From Roseateles aquatilis (GTDB lineage Bacteria > Pseudomonadota > Gammaproteobacteria > Burkholderiales > Burkholderiaceae_C): a stretch of 64,000 nucleotides of DNA. Location: positions 62,001 through 126,000 of the forward strand of contig NZ_NIOF01000014.1 of assembly GCF_002205645.1 (NCBI RefSeq), given 5' to 3'. A program made the translations under genes and the position numbers. Positions 28,773-37,527 of the stretch are shown piece after piece. The notes below the pieces were generated by a model that was given only the letters and a program-made list of their open reading frames with translations, was not told where the DNA came from and ran no database searches. The stretch's first letter is position 1; the number at the start of each line of letters is the position of its first letter.

Positions 28773-30386
28773 ATGACGACACCGCGAGGGGCAAGACCTG
28801 GCCCCGTGACCCACCGATCGCGCCGAATGCTGGCGCCGACCCTGGCGCTGATGCTCGCGACGACCGCCCTGTGCGCGAGCGCCGCTTCGGCGGCCGATGG
28901 CGGCGCCGCGAGCGCCACCGGCGCCACCAGCGCCGCAAGTACGGCCAGCGCCGACGGCCTGGCCTCGCTGACCGCCTGCCGCGTCGACGGCGTGCCCACC
29001 GAAGTCCAGTGCGGCAGCATCCGCCGCCCGCTCGACCCCGCCCGACCGACCGGCACGCAGATCGACATCCACTTCGTCGTCGTCCGCGCGCTGGCACGCA
29101 ACAAGTTCCCCGATCCCGTGCTGCTGCTGGCCGGCGGCCCCGGCCAGAGCGCGGTCGCGCTGACGGGCATGGTGCTGCCGCGGCTCTCGCGCCTGAACTA
29201 CCGCCGCGACCTGGTCTTCGTCGACCAGCGCGGCACCGGCCGGTCCGCCCCGCTGGTGTGCCCGGACAACAGCGACAAGCCGCTGGAGGAGCTGGTCCAA
29301 CCGGGCGCCAGGCTGCGCCTGCTCGACCAATGCCGCACGCAGCTGGAGCGGCTGCCCCACGGCGACCTGCGCTTCTACACCACCACCATCGCGATGCAGG
29401 ACATGGACGCGGTGCGCGCGGCGCTCGGCGTCGAGCAGTGGAACCTGGTCGGCGCGTCCTACGGCACGCGGGCCGGGCTGGAGTACCAGCGCCAGTTCCC
29501 GCAGCGCGTGCGACGCGCGGTGATCGACGGCGTCGCGCCGCCCGACATGGTGCTGCCGGTGTCCTTCTCCCGCGACGTGCAGGCCGCGCTGGACGGCGTG
29601 ATCGACGCCTGCGCGAAGGAGACCGCCTGCAACGCGCGCTTCCCCGCGCTGCGGACCGAATGGCAGGGGCTGCTCAAGAGCCTGCCGCGCAAGGTCACCT
29701 TCACCCATCCGGTCACCGGCCGGAGCGAGGACGTGACGCTGACCCGCGAGGCGCTGCTCGGCATGGTGCGGCCGCCGCTGTACGCGCCGGCCACCGCCGC
29801 CGCCCTGCCCGCCGCGTTGCATGAGGCCGCGCAAGGCCGCTTCGACGCGGTCGCCGGCCTGGCCGGCCAGCTCGGCGGCGGATCGCGCGCGACGCGCATC
29901 GCCGAGGGCATGCACTTCTCCGTCATCTGCGCCGAGGACGCGCCGCGCATCACGCAGTCGACCGAGGCGCCCGCCGCCGACTTCGGCACGCTGGACAGCG
30001 ACCTTTACAGCAGCGTCTGCCGCCAGTGGCCGCGTGGCGAGGTGCCCGCGGCGTTCTACACCCTTCCGGTGTCGAAGACGCCGGTGCTGCTGGTCAGCGG
30101 CGGCGCCGATCCGGCCACGCCGCCGCGCCACGCCACCCGTGTCGCCCAGGCGCTCGGCGCGCAGGCCGTGCATGTGGTCGTGCCGCAGGCGGGCCATGGC
30201 GTCGCGCTGACGCTGGCCTGCATGCGCGATGTGGTCTACCGCTTCATCGACGCACCCAAGGACGCCGACGCGCTGCGCGTCGACACCGCCTGCGCGACGC
30301 GCATCCCGCGTCCGCCCGCCTTCCTGCCCCCCACTCCGGCGACCGTCTCGGCCGCCGCCTCCGCCGCCCGGGAGTCCAACCGATGA
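28773..30386 (+). CDS. Secreted alpha/beta hydrolase with TAP-like C-terminus
   Basis: 537 aa. N-terminal signal peptide (APTLALMLATTALCASAASA), then an alpha/beta hydrolase core: oxyanion region LLLAGGPGQSAVAL, nucleophile S229 in GASYGTRAG, D446 in GGADPATPP and H475 in QAGHGVAL. The C-terminal part matches the TAP-like domain of tripeptidyl or proline-type peptidases (family S33). Three pairs of cysteines suggest an oxidising compartment. Its stop overlaps the ATG of an ABC ATPase gene (ATGA), so it belongs to a three-gene operon with a NatAB-type transporter. Confidence 0.85.
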   Translation: MTTPRGARPGPVTHRSRRMLAPTLALMLATTALCASAASAADGGAASATGATSAASTASADGLASLTACRVDGVPTEVQCGSIRRPLDPARPTGTQIDIHFVVVRALARNKFPDPVLLLAGGPGQSAVALTGMVLPRLSRLNYRRDLVFVDQRGTGRSAPLVCPDNSDKPLEELVQPGARLRLLDQCRTQLERLPHGDLRFYTTTIAMQDMDAVRAALGVEQWNLVGASYGTRAGLEYQRQFPQRVRRAVIDGVAPPDMVLPVSFSRDVQAALDGVIDACAKETACNARFPALRTEWQGLLKSLPRKVTFTHPVTGRSEDVTLTREALLGMVRPPLYAPATAAALPAALHEAAQGRFDAVAGLAGQLGGGSRATRIAEGMHFSVICAEDAPRITQSTEAPAADFGTLDSDLYSSVCRQWPRGEVPAAFYTLPVSKTPVLLVSGGADPATPPRHATRVAQALGAQAVHVVVPQAGHGVALTLACMRDVVYRFIDAPKDADALRVDTACATRIPRPPAFLPPTPATVSAAASAARESNR

Positions 30387-32935: not shown

Positions 32936-33036
32936 CAGGGGCGTGAATGCGTCACGGGACCTATGCAGGCCCCGCCCGGCGCATGACAGGCACGCCGTCG
33001 GGACACAACAGGCCGGTCGACGGACCGGAGCGATCG

Positions 33037-33750
33037 ATGCTGCAAGGCGGTTATCAGTCAGTTCTAGAAGCACGCTCACGGGACGAGTTCCGCAGTGAGG
33101 TGATCCGCTTCGCGCAAAGCCTGGAGTTCCAGACGGTCTCCGCCATCACCGTGGTGGACCACACGCTCGCGCAGTCCGAGTTCATCACCATCGACAACTG
33201 CCCCGTGGGCTACAGCGACGTGATGCACGCGCCCGAGTTCGGCCGCCGCGATCCCGTCATGCAGCACTGCAAGCGCAACAGCATGCCGATCGTGTGGGAC
33301 CGCCAGACCTACGCTCAGCACGGCGCCAGCGACATCTGGGAATCGCAAGCCCAATTCGGCTACAGCACCGGCATCTGCCTGGCGCTGCACCTGCCCGAGG
33401 GCCGCCACTTCGTGCTGGGCGTCGATCGCGATCGCCCATTGCCAAGCGACAAAGTCGAACTGACGCGCATGGTCGCCGACCTGCAGCTGTTCGCCGTGCA
33501 TGCGGTGGACACGGCCTTGCGTGTGCTGCTGCCGGAACAGAAAAGCGCCGACTCGCCGCGCCTCACGCCGCGCGAGCTCGAGTGCCTGAACTGGACGATG
33601 GAAGGCAAGACCGCCTGGGAAGTCGGCGCCATCCTGAGCATCACGGAACGGACCGCCGTGCTGCACATCAACAACGCGATGCACAAGCTGGGCTGCACCA
33701 ACAAGCATCAGGCCGTTCTGAAGGCGCTGAGACTGGGCCTCATCCGCTGA
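33037..33750 (+). CDS. LuxR-type regulator with altered autoinducer pocket
   Basis: 237 aa. N-terminal autoinducer-binding domain (about 10-150) and C-terminal LuxR helix-turn-helix (LTPRELECLNWTMEGKTAWEVGAILSITERTAVLHINNA in two parts). Against TraR numbering, D70, P71 and W85 align at the expected spacings (D72, P73, W87), but W57 and Y61 are replaced by Y59 and M63. It may therefore bind something other than a standard acyl-homoserine lactone. GGAG lies seven bases before the ATG. No luxI gene is in the window. It is followed by a lux-box-like site and a peptide export cluster, the likely regulon. Confidence 0.88.
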   Translation: MLQGGYQSVLEARSRDEFRSEVIRFAQSLEFQTVSAITVVDHTLAQSEFITIDNCPVGYSDVMHAPEFGRRDPVMQHCKRNSMPIVWDRQTYAQHGASDIWESQAQFGYSTGICLALHLPEGRHFVLGVDRDRPLPSDKVELTRMVADLQLFAVHAVDTALRVLLPEQKSADSPRLTPRELECLNWTMEGKTAWEVGAILSITERTAVLHINNAMHKLGCTNKHQAVLKALRLGLIR

Positions 33751-33771: not shown

Positions 33772-33782
33772 GTAAACACTGT
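33772..33782. promoter_or_regulatory. GTAAACNCTGT motif, copy 3
   Basis: GTAAACACTGT, overlapping the left arm of the lux-box-like dyad upstream of the peptide gene. A small hairpin (CCTGCC / GGCAGG, 33753-33770) just before it may end luxR transcription. Confidence 0.55.
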
Positions 33783-33796
33783 AAGAGCTGACAGTT
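33777..33796 (+). promoter_or_regulatory. lux-box-like dyad driving the peptide operon
   Basis: CACTGTAAGAGCTGACAGTT has the CTGT-N8-ACAG core of a 20-base lux box. A -10-like TTCAAT lies at 33818-33823, which would place the start of transcription near 33830 and the box centre about 43 bases upstream, the position used by LuxR-type activators that replace the -35 contact. Confidence 0.6.
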
Positions 33797-33875: not shown

Positions 33876-34073
33876 ATGCAAGCCCAACCCAACACCGTCA
33901 TCGTCAACGCCCAGACCGAAGAAGGCCTGATCGAACTCGATCTGCAAAGCCTGGTCCACGTCGGCGGCGGTGCACCCAAGGGCACCTGGCTGGTGGGCGC
34001 CGATGCCACGGCGACCGTGGCGCTGGCCTCGCTCGACGCGGGCATGGAACCGGCCCCCAAGGGCACCTGGTAA
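33876..34073 (+). CDS. Double-glycine leader peptide precursor with repeated APKGTW
   Basis: 65 aa. TGGAG lies just upstream of the ATG, which decides this start over a GTG at 33831. The leader (1-32) ends in the pattern L-x4-L-x2-V-x-GG (L21, L26, V29, G31, G32), the cleavage signal of C39-peptidase exporters. Cleavage after G32 gives a 33-residue product that begins and ends with APKGTW and has an Ala/Thr/Val-rich acidic middle; it has no cysteine. The two hexapeptide codon runs differ at one base, so they look like a duplication. HlyD and C39-ABC genes follow directly. It could be a microcin-like toxin or a secreted signal; I know no named family. Confidence 0.75.
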   Translation: MQAQPNTVIVNAQTEEGLIELDLQSLVHVGGGAPKGTWLVGADATATVALASLDAGMEPAPKGTW

Positions 34074-34127
34074 GCCCCCGAGGCTGATTCGCGACCGTCA
34101 GGTTCGCAACAAGGCGTAGCAGTTGTG

Positions 34128-35372
34128 ATGGCGCTCTTCCGCGCCGAAGCGCAGGCCTCGCAACAGCAGGCCTGGCTGGGATCGGTGCAACTGCATCGCC
34201 CCGCGACACTGCGATGGCTGAGCATCCTTGCACTGGGTGGCGTGATCGCCGTCGGCGCATTCCTGTTCAGCAGCGAATACACCCGCAAGGCCCGCGTCAA
34301 CGGCCTGCTGGTGCCCGAGCGCGGCGTGATGCGGCTGAGCGTGCCGCAAAGCGCCACCGTCGTGGCACGACCTGTCCAGGACGGGCAGCAGGTGCATGAA
34401 GGCGACGTGTTGTTCGTGCTCTCGCTCGACAGCACGAACCCCAACGGCGACGGCCTGTCCCGGACCCTGCGCGAGCGCGAACGCTCGCTGGGCGCGGCAC
34501 AGGCGCAGCAGCGCGAACTGGCGCAGAGCCAGGCGACGTCGCTGAAGGCACGCATCGGGACGCTGGATGCCACGCTGCGGCAGGCCGATGCCGAGCTGCG
34601 GCTGCATGCGGAGCGCGAGGCGCTCGCGCAGCAGAGCCTGGGCCGGCTCGAGTCACTGGCGAAAGACCAGTTCGTCTCGAGCGCCCAGGTCCAGACCAAG
34701 CGGGAGGAGTTGCTTGGCTTGCAGGCCCAACGGCAGGCGCTGGCGCGCGAGCGCGAGAACCTGCAGCGGGAGGCGTTGGGCCTGCAAGCTGAGCTCCAGG
34801 CATTGCCCTTGAAGGCCGAGGTGCAGCAGGGCGAGCTCTCTCGCGACATCGCCGCCTTGCAGGCGCAGGGCGTCGAGAACGAAGCGCGTCGCCGCCTGGT
34901 GCTGCGCGCGCCCAGCGACGGCCAGATGAGCACCGTGCTGGCCGATCCCGGCCAGGTCGTGCAGGCCGGCACCCAGCTCGCCGCGCTGCTGCCGGCGCAC
35001 ACGCCGTTGCAGGCGCACCTCTACGCCCCGTCCAGCGCCGTCGGCTTCCTGCGCCCGCACCAGACGGTGCTGCTGCGCTATCAGGCCTTCCCGTACCAGA
35101 AATTCGGCCAGCAGGAAGGCGAGGTCCTGCAGGTCTCCCGCACGCCATTGCAGGCCGCGGAGCTGGCCCAGCTCGGGCTGCCCGCCGCGATGACGCAAGG
35201 CGAGCCGATGTACCGCATCACCGTGCAGTTGCAGCGCCAGTCGGTGCAGGCCTATGGGCAGGATCAATCGCTGAGCCCGGGTATGCTGCTCGAGGCCGAC
35301 GTGCTGCTCGAGCGCCGCCGTCTCATCGAATGGATCTTCGAACCGCTGCTGAGCCTCGCCCGTCGTGTCTGA
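34128..35372 (+). CDS. HlyD-family membrane fusion protein for peptide export
   Basis: About 414 aa. Short cytoplasmic N-terminus, one membrane helix (LRWLSILALGGVIAVGAFLF), then a lipoyl-type barrel (GVMRLSVPQSATVVARPVQDGQ), a long Gln/Arg/Leu coiled coil (about 110-255, for example RERERSLGAAQAQQRELAQ), and a closing barrel. It links the inner-membrane exporter to an outer-membrane channel such as TolC, which is not encoded here. A GTG three bases upstream is an alternative start. The stop overlaps the ABC gene by 8 bases, so the two are coupled. Confidence 0.88.
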   Translation: MALFRAEAQASQQQAWLGSVQLHRPATLRWLSILALGGVIAVGAFLFSSEYTRKARVNGLLVPERGVMRLSVPQSATVVARPVQDGQQVHEGDVLFVLSLDSTNPNGDGLSRTLRERERSLGAAQAQQRELAQSQATSLKARIGTLDATLRQADAELRLHAEREALAQQSLGRLESLAKDQFVSSAQVQTKREELLGLQAQRQALARERENLQREALGLQAELQALPLKAEVQQGELSRDIAALQAQGVENEARRRLVLRAPSDGQMSTVLADPGQVVQAGTQLAALLPAHTPLQAHLYAPSSAVGFLRPHQTVLLRYQAFPYQKFGQQEGEVLQVSRTPLQAAELAQLGLPAAMTQGEPMYRITVQLQRQSVQAYGQDQSLSPGMLLEADVLLERRRLIEWIFEPLLSLARRV

Positions 35373-37527
35373 TGCCGCCCCTTCCGCCGCCTCTTCTCCT
35401 GCCCGACCCCGGTTGCTTGATCGCCTGAACCTGGGCTGGCGACGACGTCGCCCCGTCATCCTCCAGACCGAGGCCGCCGAGTGCGGCCTCGCCTGCCTCG
35501 CGATGGTCGCGGCGACGCACGGCCAGCGCTGGACGCTCGCGGAATTGCGCGACCGTTTCGCCGTCTCGCTCAAGGGCATGACGATGGCGGACATGGTCCG
35601 CATGGGCGCGCAACTGGGCCTCACGGCGCGCGCGCTGCGCGCCGAACCGGCCACGCTGCACAAGCTGCAGACGCCCTGCGTGCTGCATTGGGACTTCAAT
35701 CATTTCGTCGTGCTGGACCGCGTGCAGGGCGACCAGGCGGTGATCCTCGACCCCGCGCTGGGCGAGCGCCGCCTGTCGCTGACCGAGGTCTCCAAGCACT
35801 TCACCGGCGTCGCGCTCGAACTGCGGCCCGGCATGGACTTCGCCCGCAAGGCCCCTGCCCCGGCGCCGCGCTGGCGGCAGTTGCTCGGGCACGTGACGGG
35901 CTTGAAGCGCTCGGTCGCGCAGGTGCTGGGCCTGGCGCTCGGGCTGGAGTTGCTGGGGCTGCTGTCGCCGTTCCTGCTGCAATGGACCGTCGACGGCGTC
36001 ATCGTCAGCGCCGACCGCGATCTGCTGGTGACGCTCGTGATCGGCTTCGCGCTGCTGGTGGTGCTGCAGGTGGGCGTGGGTCTGCTGCGCTCGTGGGCGG
36101 TGATGATCCTGTCGGCGTCACTGAACCTGCAGTGGCTGTCCAACGTGTTCGCGCACCTGCTGCGCTTGCCGTTGGCCTGGTTCGAGAAGCGCCATCTCGG
36201 CGACATCTGGTCGCGCTTCTCCAGCGTGCAGGAGATCCAGAAGACGCTCACCGGCAGCTTCATCGAGGCGATGCTCGACGGCCTGATGGTGCTGCTGACG
36301 CTGGCGATGATGTCGCTGTACAGCCTGCGCCTGACGGCGATCGCGCTGCTCGCGGTGGTCGGCTACGCGGCCCTGCGCTGGGCATTCTTCAAGCCGCTGC
36401 GCGTCGCGCAGGAAGAGGCGTTGACGCATGAGGCGCGCCAGAACAGCCACTTCCTCGAATCGCTGCGCGGCGCGCAGGCGATCAAGCTGTTCAACGCGCA
36501 GGCGGACCGCAGCGCGCGTTTCTCCAACCTCGTCGTCGAGCAGATGAACGCGTCGCTGACCGGCCGCAAGCTGGAGCTCGGCATGGGTCAGGGCAACAAG
36601 CTGCTGTTCGGGCTGGAGCGCGTGGCCATCGTCGGGCTCGGCGCGATGCTGGTGCTGGACAAGGAACTGTCGGTCGGCATGCTGTTCGCGTTCCTCGCCT
36701 ACAAGGACCAGTTCAGCCAGCGCGTCGGTGGGCTGATCGACAAGGTCGTGGCGCTGAAGATGCTGCGCCTGCAGGGCGAGCGCCTGGCCGACATCGTGCT
36801 GACCGCGCCCGAGGCCGAGCTCGACGCGCCCGGCCGCACGGTGCCCCGCGATGCGGTGCTCGAGCTGGACAACCTGCGGTTCCGCTACGCCGACGGCGAG
36901 CCGGAGGTGATCGCTGGCTGCTCGCTGCGCATCGAGCCGGGCGAGTCGGTCGCCATCGTTGGCCCGTCGGGCTGCGGCAAGACGACGCTCATGAAGCTGA
37001 TGCTGGGCATCCACGCGCCGCAGCAGGGCGAGATCCGCGTCGGCGGCGTGGCGCTGGCGCAGCTCGGCGCGAATGCCTGGCGCGAACGCATCGGCACGGT
37101 GATGCAGGACGATCAGCTCTTCGCCGGCAGCATCGCGGACAACATCAGCTTCTTCGACCTGAACGTCGATCCGGAGTGGGTCCGTGAATGCGCCCGACTG
37201 GCCTGCGTGCTGGACGACATCGAGGCGATGCCGATGCGCTTCCAGACGCTGATCGGCGACATGGGCTCCAGCCTGTCAGGCGGTCAGCGCCAGCGCGTGC
37301 TGCTGGCCCGCGCGCTGTACAAGCGGCCGCAGTTCCTCTTCCTGGACGAGGCGACCAGCGCGCTCGACGTCGACCGCGAACGGCAGGTCAATGCGAGCCT
37401 GCGGCAGTTGCCGCTGACGCGCATCGTCATCGCGCATCGGCCCGAAACGATCGCGGCCGCGCAGCGCGTGGTCAGCTTGCAGGGCGGGCGGGTGACGCAG
37501 GATTTGCGCAGCGTTTATCAGGCTTGA
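35365..37527 (+). CDS. C39-peptidase ABC exporter (bacteriocin-processing type)
   Basis: 720 aa, GTG start. N-terminal C39 peptidase: oxyanion Q34, nucleophile C40 in TEAAECGLACLAM, H113 in DFNHFVVLDRV and D129 in VILDPALG, so the protease is intact. Membrane domain about 165-460. ABC domain about 485-720 with Walker A GPSGCGKTT (from 533), signature LSGGQ (637-641) and Walker B FLFLDEATS. Such exporters cut the leader after Gly-Gly while pumping out the mature peptide, matching the precursor at 33876. It is related to CvaB (colicin V) and to RaxB-type exporters. Confidence 0.93.
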   Translation: MSDAAPSAASSPARPRLLDRLNLGWRRRRPVILQTEAAECGLACLAMVAATHGQRWTLAELRDRFAVSLKGMTMADMVRMGAQLGLTARALRAEPATLHKLQTPCVLHWDFNHFVVLDRVQGDQAVILDPALGERRLSLTEVSKHFTGVALELRPGMDFARKAPAPAPRWRQLLGHVTGLKRSVAQVLGLALGLELLGLLSPFLLQWTVDGVIVSADRDLLVTLVIGFALLVVLQVGVGLLRSWAVMILSASLNLQWLSNVFAHLLRLPLAWFEKRHLGDIWSRFSSVQEIQKTLTGSFIEAMLDGLMVLLTLAMMSLYSLRLTAIALLAVVGYAALRWAFFKPLRVAQEEALTHEARQNSHFLESLRGAQAIKLFNAQADRSARFSNLVVEQMNASLTGRKLELGMGQGNKLLFGLERVAIVGLGAMLVLDKELSVGMLFAFLAYKDQFSQRVGGLIDKVVALKMLRLQGERLADIVLTAPEAELDAPGRTVPRDAVLELDNLRFRYADGEPEVIAGCSLRIEPGESVAIVGPSGCGKTTLMKLMLGIHAPQQGEIRVGGVALAQLGANAWRERIGTVMQDDQLFAGSIADNISFFDLNVDPEWVRECARLACVLDDIEAMPMRFQTLIGDMGSSLSGGQRQRVLLARALYKRPQFLFLDEATSALDVDRERQVNASLRQLPLTRIVIAHRPETIAAAQRVVSLQGGRVTQDLRSVYQA

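Follow-up and report, generated by a model that had tools for sequence, protein, structure and literature searches.

A gene-encoded C-terminal hexapeptide as the likely ligand of an adjacent LuxR solo

Analysis of a 64,000-nucleotide stretch of Roseateles aquatilis DNA (the window) led us to propose that a small precursor gene encodes the ligand of the LuxR solo beside it, a peptide in place of an acyl-homoserine lactone (AHL). We consider this likely in the absence of binding, expression or mass-spectrometric data. Comparison of related loci shows that the active unit is one or more copies of a C-terminal [small or Leu]-P-x-x-x-W peptide. Residues of this unit covary with residues of the LuxR ligand pocket, and a contact between the two is the best explanation of the results, an inference from comparative sequence without binding data. 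In the textbook view, LuxR receptors sense diffusible small molecules that enzymes produce, and the Gram-positive alternative is signalling by gene-encoded peptides. Our searches of the open-access literature (subscription journals and preprints were outside their scope) turned up neither a LuxR with an encoded peptide ligand nor the sequence PKGTW.

The precursor gene (33876..34073, + strand) encodes 65 residues, translated as MQAQPNTVIVNAQTEEGLIELDLQSLVHVGGG-APKGTW-LVGADATATVALASLDAGMEP-APKGTW*, and TGGAG is found a few bases 5' of its ATG. Residues 1-32 (33876..33971, +) form a conserved double-glycine leader in the L-x4-L-x2-V-x-GG register, the kind of leader expected of C39-exported double-glycine peptides. 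C39 cleavage is predicted after Gly32 and would leave a 33-mer with APKGTW at both termini. The first hexapeptide copy (33972..33989, +) is followed by a 21-residue spacer (33990..34052, +) and the second copy (34053..34070, +), and the protein ends with the Trp of the latter. The two 18-base coding segments are identical except at the third position of codon 1 (GCA/GCC). Both cleavage after Gly-Gly and secretion are inferred from the leader motif and the domains of the neighbouring genes, with no mass-spectrometric data. Pfam and NCBIfam scans of 21 peptides of this kind returned no convincing family, the best match being that of a single member to the CCRG-2 RiPP family (0.0024). Streptide-like Lys-Trp crosslinking is a known modification and was considered for the hexapeptide because of its K-G-x-W; a RiPP was rejected, no modification enzyme being present among the scanned neighbours in the window (other loci were not covered).

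Homologues of the precursor are present in all 16 genomes of the genus set, which includes the window's genome. Fifteen were clear in a protein search, and in all 15 [A/T]PKGTW directly follows the GG and is repeated at the C-terminus, the copies of one precursor always agreeing in A or T as the first letter. The sixteenth genome (G008, locus L125) carries APTKGW twice. Two identical hexapeptides per precursor are conserved in 16/16 genomes, which excludes a chance origin of the pairing. Averaged over all pairs of the 15 genes, each copy shows 91% amino-acid identity and the leader 64%, against 31% for the spacer, which is conserved neither in sequence nor in length (14-21 residues). The original prediction, made from the sequence alone, had described a 33-mer with APKGTW at both ends and coding segments differing at a single third position. 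Both claims held on translation and leader motif, the cleavage itself being predicted. It had further suggested that the hexapeptide is the functional unit, and this is supported by the collected homologues: the terminal hexapeptide is the conserved part, the opposite of the refuting pattern of a conserved middle without conserved ends. Recent DNA-level duplication was rejected as the sole cause of the identical ends. At codons 2-6 of the 15 [A/T]PKGTW genes, where only synonymous differences occur, the two copies did not resemble each other more than shuffled pairs do (permutation P 0.34), and therefore it is mainly the protein sequence that is kept equal, not the DNA; with the first codon, the site of the A/T change, added, the permutation P was 0.009. 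The copies thus probably stay equal through selection on the peptide and not through recent duplication of the DNA.

The gene upstream of the precursor (33037..33750, +) encodes a LuxR-type regulator with an autoinducer-binding domain (PF03472, 2.8e-22) and a GerE helix-turn-helix (PF00196, 1.4e-15). Its reading frame opens at 32947, and Met31 (33037), which does not vary among 24 aligned sequences including that of the window, is the conserved start. LuxI (PF00765) is absent from 12/16 genus genomes, the window's among them, and present in the other four; in 11/16, again including the window's, the LuxR beside the peptide is the only PF03472 protein. With both domains present and no LuxI in the genome, the criteria of a LuxR solo are met. 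The criterion of an AHL-responsive LuxR, conserved W57 and Y61 (TraR numbering), is not. Among 98 aligned orthologues the W57 equivalent is Tyr or Phe in 89 and Trp in six (Tyr in the window), and the Y61 equivalent is kept in only 13, being mostly Phe or Met (Met in the window). Other AHL-site equivalents are retained, namely D70 in 94, P71 in 97, W85 in 97 and G113 in 98 of the 98, and AHL binding is not excluded because D70, W85 and G113 are kept in the pocket. Single-sequence structure prediction of LuxR was unusable (mean pLDDT 36.5). An alignment-based model of moderate quality (pLDDT 79.7, pTM 0.60) resembles QscR, SdiA and RhlR over its full length and CepR2 and LasR in the ligand domain.

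A lux-box-like palindrome, CACTGTAAGAGCTGACAGTT (33777..33796, +), with the CT-N12-AG geometry lies between LuxR and the peptide gene and is supported by its conservation and uniqueness. The perfect sequence CTGTNAGANNTGACAG occurs once in the 6.4 Mb genome, at the peptide promoter; this genome has four one-mismatch sites, and the reversed control pattern gave none. The perfect box lies at the peptide in every one of the 16 genus genomes, with a second perfect copy in G008 and G012 alone. Additional one-mismatch sites number 0-5 per genus genome versus 0-2 for the reversed control. Over the wider family described below, the pattern CTGTNA[AG]NNNTNNCAG was found between LuxR and peptide in 85/97 evaluable loci, and inspection by eye showed near forms in several of the remainder (L097, L100, L101, L104, L111 and L162). 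Because the box is essentially confined to one promoter, it does not reveal the output regulon. In six genus genomes a one-mismatch box-like site is located upstream of an S8 (subtilase, PF00082) protease gene (L239 about 1522, in the window's genome, and L232-L236). A co-regulated S8 protease could process multi-copy precursors; the site sits in a conserved block wider than the box, so it is a lead only. Another one-mismatch site recurs in six genomes; by eye, genes close to it resemble those of a biotin ligase and a SET-domain protein.

Downstream of the peptide are genes for an HlyD-type periplasmic adaptor (34125..35372, +; TIGR01843 at 1.1e-35, below the curated cut-off; PF13437 at 3.8e-15) and a peptidase-containing ABC exporter (35365..37527, +) composed of a C39 peptidase, an ABC membrane domain and an ATPase (PF03412 at 7.8e-35, PF00664 and PF00005; TIGR03796 at 1.2e-148, also below its curated cut-off). 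The criterion of an adjacent C39 ABC exporter and HlyD, which applies to C39-exported double-glycine peptides, is thereby met in the window. Beyond the exporter lie two short ORFs that overlap each other and match no Pfam family, and a TctC gene on the opposite strand, with mnmG and rsmG further downstream; ABC-2 transporter genes lie upstream of LuxR. Three genes upstream of LuxR, at 28773-30386, the window also encodes an alpha/beta hydrolase with a TAP-like C-terminus (PF00561, PF08386), a peptidase-type neighbour that recalls the pip genes near OryR-type LuxR proteins.

We extended the comparison to 399 genomes of the GTDB family. A peptide profile search listed 76 genomes at E<=0.05, many of them weak, and loci were retrieved for the stronger or more plausible rows alone; a LuxR search listed 94 at E<=1e-60. 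In total 105 loci were read, the window's included, and 97 were evaluable; those left out ended at a contig edge (L154, L174, L177, L181 and L185) or were LuxR paralogues of less than 50% identity (L186-L188). The peptides of L123, L164, L134 (GTG start) and L179 had been missed or misread by the script and were assigned by hand. An ORF ending in P-x(2-4)-W, with no more than three residues after the Trp, is present in 91/97 evaluable loci, and 85 have the exact terminal P-x-x-x-W. The motif was found in 37 of the 42 evaluable loci fetched via the LuxR search (some also had weak peptide matches), and an orthologous LuxR is directly upstream of the peptide in 54/54 loci fetched via the peptide search. 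In L101 and L162 only a PRGGW unit at the N-terminus is left, in L143 and L151 an intact LuxR is accompanied by a degenerate tail, LPRVGGL, without Trp, and neither peptide nor box could be detected beside LuxR in L149 and L180. Genus g95 (L143, L151 and L149) is apparently losing the system, with Trp-less tails in the first two and no peptide or box in the third.

An order-wide peptide profile search of 399 genomes found nothing convincing outside the GTDB family, and a search for LuxR across 320 genomes of the order (E<=1e-50) recovered two family members and one 39% relative. A genome from another family of the order (G785) has near-identical tandem GG peptides ending in VGGGSGIFVLA (L095 and L096) and, on another contig, a GG peptide ending in VGGGSLAVVEM (L085), a set apparently unrelated to the hexapeptide precursors. 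L168 has a second GG-type small ORF (MRELKSEEIAVIGGAG...) about 3.7 kb after LuxR (oriented), unrelated in sequence to PxxxW. Clusters of three to five related LuxR paralogues were seen near the peptide gene in L160, L161, L168, L169 and L117 and in the LuxR-search rows of G226, G356, G111, G211 and G081; it is possible that these are receptors of other specificities that hear foreign peptides.

More than one hexapeptide copy occurs in 37/91 peptide-bearing loci, with an overall range of one to five. L136 has five copies of GPNGGW, L146, L147 and L150 have four of SPKGTW, L183 has three units, and the other multi-copy loci have two. The first and last copies are the same in 15/19 distinct pairs versus 0.84 expected by shuffling (P about 1e-5), a calculation that still included a wrong ORF for L179, later corrected. 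The same analysis counted 53 distinct last hexamers, whose Pro and Trp were imposed by the search pattern. Single-copy precursors go down to GG-LPKATW (L111), in which nothing but the hexapeptide follows the GG.

HlyD and exporter homologues are found downstream in 74/97 loci, and in 72 of these 74 the LuxR-HlyD gap of 253-511 nt is filled by the peptide gene, which out-of-frame ORFs overlap. The other 23/97 have no exporter within the fetched DNA, as judged on 4.2-7.0 kb after LuxR; the whole genome was searched only for six genus genomes (L037 and L041-L045). These six lack a cognate exporter genome-wide, their best paralogues being 45-54% identical versus 79-100% in the ten others, and they have also lost the adjacent HlyD while keeping intact two-copy TPKGTW precursors with a leader. 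Five of the 23 exporter-less loci contain leaderless mini-genes behind the box, encoding MQVLLPRNAW (L163), MQAVKTVSTRPVQLPRAGW (L148), MIATTTRQANTTTELPRAGW (L152), MQASRHATATIRRNPKGGW (L179) and MKPSHALDASSLSPKGGWSPKGGWWAPKGGW (L183). They span 10-31 codons, MQVLLPRNAW being the smallest. Each such ORF arises by chance in 0.05-0.3% of trials (0.0005-0.003; dinucleotide shuffles of the same 280 nt), and terminator-like hairpins follow soon after in L148, L152 and L163 (by eye). We conclude that the exporter is in all likelihood dispensable, bearing in mind that the 23 loci were judged on fetched DNA. Since the LuxR-peptide pair persists without an exporter, in five cases as a leaderless gene, the minimal unit is LuxR, box and peptide, and LuxR contact, not export, appears to be the conserved core.

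These loci bear on two alternative identities of the small gene. One is a small bacteriocin of the class II microcin type, in which a GG leader, HlyD and a C39 ABC exporter are common features. Against this, the window's cassette has no recognisable immunity gene (though two short unassigned ORFs follow the exporter), predicted mature parts go down to six residues (LPKATW in L111), and in several loci the gene persists with neither leader nor exporter; a microcin is all but excluded. The other is a role in controlling the exporter genes, either as a regulatory upstream ORF or as a translation-arrest peptide, as might be suggested by a short ORF with a fixed C-terminal motif beside the stop codon and ahead of a transport operon. 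Such a role too can be virtually ruled out, given the internal repeated copies, the GG leader and the leaderless versions that have no exporter gene downstream and, in L148, L152 and L163, terminator-like hairpins by eye.

Covariation between LuxR and the peptide was analysed in 87 loci with a complete LuxR and an xPxxxW peptide (69 after dereplication); L102 and L184 (truncated LuxR) and L123 and L164 (PRVGGW, one extra residue) were not included. Residue equivalences to LasR were assigned by alignment: LuxR-99 is Ala70, 130 is Phe101, 94 is Asp65 and 93 is Tyr64. Tyr64, Ala70 and Phe101 are listed as ligand-site residues of LasR, and Asp65 is absent from that list (PMC9654057). The strongest pairing links LuxR-99 to the residue before the final Trp of the peptide. 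In the 40 loci with Gly99 this residue is Thr (35), Val (2), Tyr (2) or Ser (1) and never Gly, and in loci with Trp, Met, Gln, His, Phe or Arg at position 99 it is Gly without exception (25/25). The remaining 22/87 loci, with Ala, Ser, Cys, Asn or a gap, are mixed and follow no clear rule. The pairing, as inferred from covariation, matches the expectation from steric complementarity. L101 and L162, which have only the N-terminal PRGGW and were outside the scan, both have Trp99 as the rule predicts.

The pairing was followed on a tree of HlyD and exporter sequences (65 loci), which shares sites with neither LuxR nor the peptide. On this tree LuxR-99 changed at least 14 times and the penultimate peptide residue at least 16 times, and 11 supported independent pairs went the same way in 10.5 cases on average and the opposite way in none (median sign-test p 0.00098). 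That p value alone is optimistic because site 99 was picked by an earlier mutual-information scan, and the subsequent tests are partly post hoc. LuxR-99 was the best of 123 LuxR columns on the exporter tree (10.5 versus 4.9 for the next), and its pairing with the penultimate residue was the best of 2286 tests. As a family-wise control, none of 108 neutrally simulated traits reached 10.5 as the maximum over columns, the highest being 6.9. The less resolved tree of LuxR itself gave six supported pairs, 4.6 to 0 (p 0.06). Exchange of LuxR and peptide as one block was rejected as the cause of the covariation, as other LuxR columns do not co-change.

Weaker pairs in the 2286-test scan were LuxR-130 with peptide position 3, acidic LuxR-94 with Lys/Arg at position 4, and LuxR-93 with position 3; their scores of 5.8-6.4 are inside the range of simulated maxima. 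Lys or Arg is at position 3 in 0/16 loci with a polar or charged LuxR-130 and in 61/71 with a hydrophobic one, and at position 4 in 15/24 loci with Glu94 versus 6/63 otherwise. Over the 69 loci, peptide distance correlated with the LuxR ligand domain (partial Mantel 0.16, P 0.0008), significantly if weakly, and not with the DNA-binding domain (0.03, P 0.28). The original prediction had also raised recognition by a receptor and further release of the free hexapeptide. The neighbouring LuxR, in which residues of the ligand pocket vary in step with the hexapeptide, is now a candidate for the former; the latter remains a mere possibility, with neither evidence of release nor mass-spectrometric data.

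Two rival readings leave the peptide as a signal or effector. The hexapeptide could be secreted and read by an unlinked receptor, LuxR regulating the operon in response to AHLs, a plant compound or an environmental compound. The GG leader and C39 exporter speak for this, as do the retained Asp70, Trp85 and Gly113 equivalents of the AHL site. It predicts neither the covariation of the LuxR pocket with the peptide nor the leaderless peptide genes beside LuxR in exporter-less loci, and we regard it as very unlikely. Alternatively, the peptide could be a LuxR inhibitor, either an anti-activator or a self-limiting antagonist, that occupies the same pocket and keeps the regulator silent. Covariation reveals contact and not its sign, and leaderless forms would act at once inside the producing cell. 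An inhibitor under lux-box control that has its own exporter would be an odd design, and the luxR-box-luxI layout points to autoinduction; neither argument settles the matter, and inhibition appears unlikely rather than excluded. By analogy we favour activation of LuxR by the peptide, the sign being unknown.

In the preferred model of a peptide ligand, LuxR would bind the lux-box-like palindrome and control the peptide-exporter operon, as inferred from the position, conservation and uniqueness of the box without binding data. As the domains and leader motif suggest, the C39 ABC/HlyD pump would cleave the precursor behind Gly-Gly and export it. The peptide, re-imported or retained, would then occupy the pocket where other LuxR proteins hold an AHL; covariation suggests that its penultimate residue may pack against LuxR-99 (LasR Ala70) and that its third and fourth residues may lie near LuxR 130/93 and 94, respectively. 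The locus would amount to a luxR-box-luxI arrangement in which the signal's own gene stands in place of the synthase gene, and since the luxR-box-peptide layout copies that arrangement, autoinduction by a gene-encoded peptide is proposed. The exporter implies an extracellular peptide, whose re-import the model does not explain, and no protease that would free copy 1 has been identified.

A bolder formulation, which we also think probable, is that a LuxR-family quorum-sensing receptor has changed its ligand class, its pocket now reading a ribosomal P-x-x-x-W peptide encoded at the place of luxI, with receptor and peptide evolving in step by a residue code (LuxR 99, 94, 130 and 93 versus peptide positions 5, 4 and 3) that specifies dozens of potentially private dialects. 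If this is true, some bacteria have swapped the classic small-molecule quorum-sensing signal for a DNA-encoded peptide, with dialects within one bacterial family and signal genes down to ten codons. A LuxR with its own encoded peptide would unite both types of signalling and may explain a set of orphan LuxR solos. The data also suggest a route by which a signalling system can lose exporter and leader and in the end keep only ten codons of its signal gene. With two genetically encoded partners and a large supply of natural pairs, the specificity code is directly testable, and the pairs are potential orthogonal, encodable signalling parts.

Several known systems share parts of this arrangement. 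The C39-exported double-glycine peptides, class II microcins included, have the same leader motif, C39 ABC exporter and HlyD, and differ from the present family in its repeated terminal hexapeptide, the absence of a recognisable immunity gene from the window's cassette and the leaderless members. The yeast alpha-factor is a multi-copy pheromone precursor with identical short units and variable spacers; several identical units with variable spacers in one precursor are also found here, with a LuxR pocket proposed instead of a GPCR and no processing protease identified. RRNPP systems (PlcR-PapR, NprR-NprX and Rgg-SHP) are Gram-positive and have intracellular transcription factors as receptors. 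They likewise use a short linear gene-encoded peptide with an adjacent gene for an intracellular transcription-factor receptor (PMC13220807). Their receptors are TPR proteins, a criterion not met by the LuxR candidate, and export here would be via a C39 ABC/HlyD pump or absent. PipR is, like the present regulator, a LuxR solo with an altered W57/Y61 pocket. It responds to an outside tripeptide at high concentration and needs an ABC peptide transporter (PMC4981722); an ethanolamine derivative was reported for PipR in later work (PMC10134790), a LuxR-solo survey that mentions neither HlyD nor the window's genus. PipR differs in that its inducer comes from outside, no peptide gene is paired with the receptor and the W57/Y61 substitutions are others. 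The OryR/PipR subfamily criterion (W57 to Met, Y61 to Trp and a flanking proline iminopeptidase gene) is not met here: no such gene was found directly beside the window's LuxR, whose neighbours are the ABC-2 transporter genes and the peptide, HlyD and exporter genes. AHL quorum sensing by LuxI/LuxR (LasR, QscR, SdiA and TraR) has the same receptor fold, helix-turn-helix and autoinduction layout, with a CT-N12-AG box directly upstream of the signal-making gene; the present system differs in that W57 is replaced in 89/98 orthologues and that, in place of a synthase, the signal itself is proposed to be a gene-encoded peptide.
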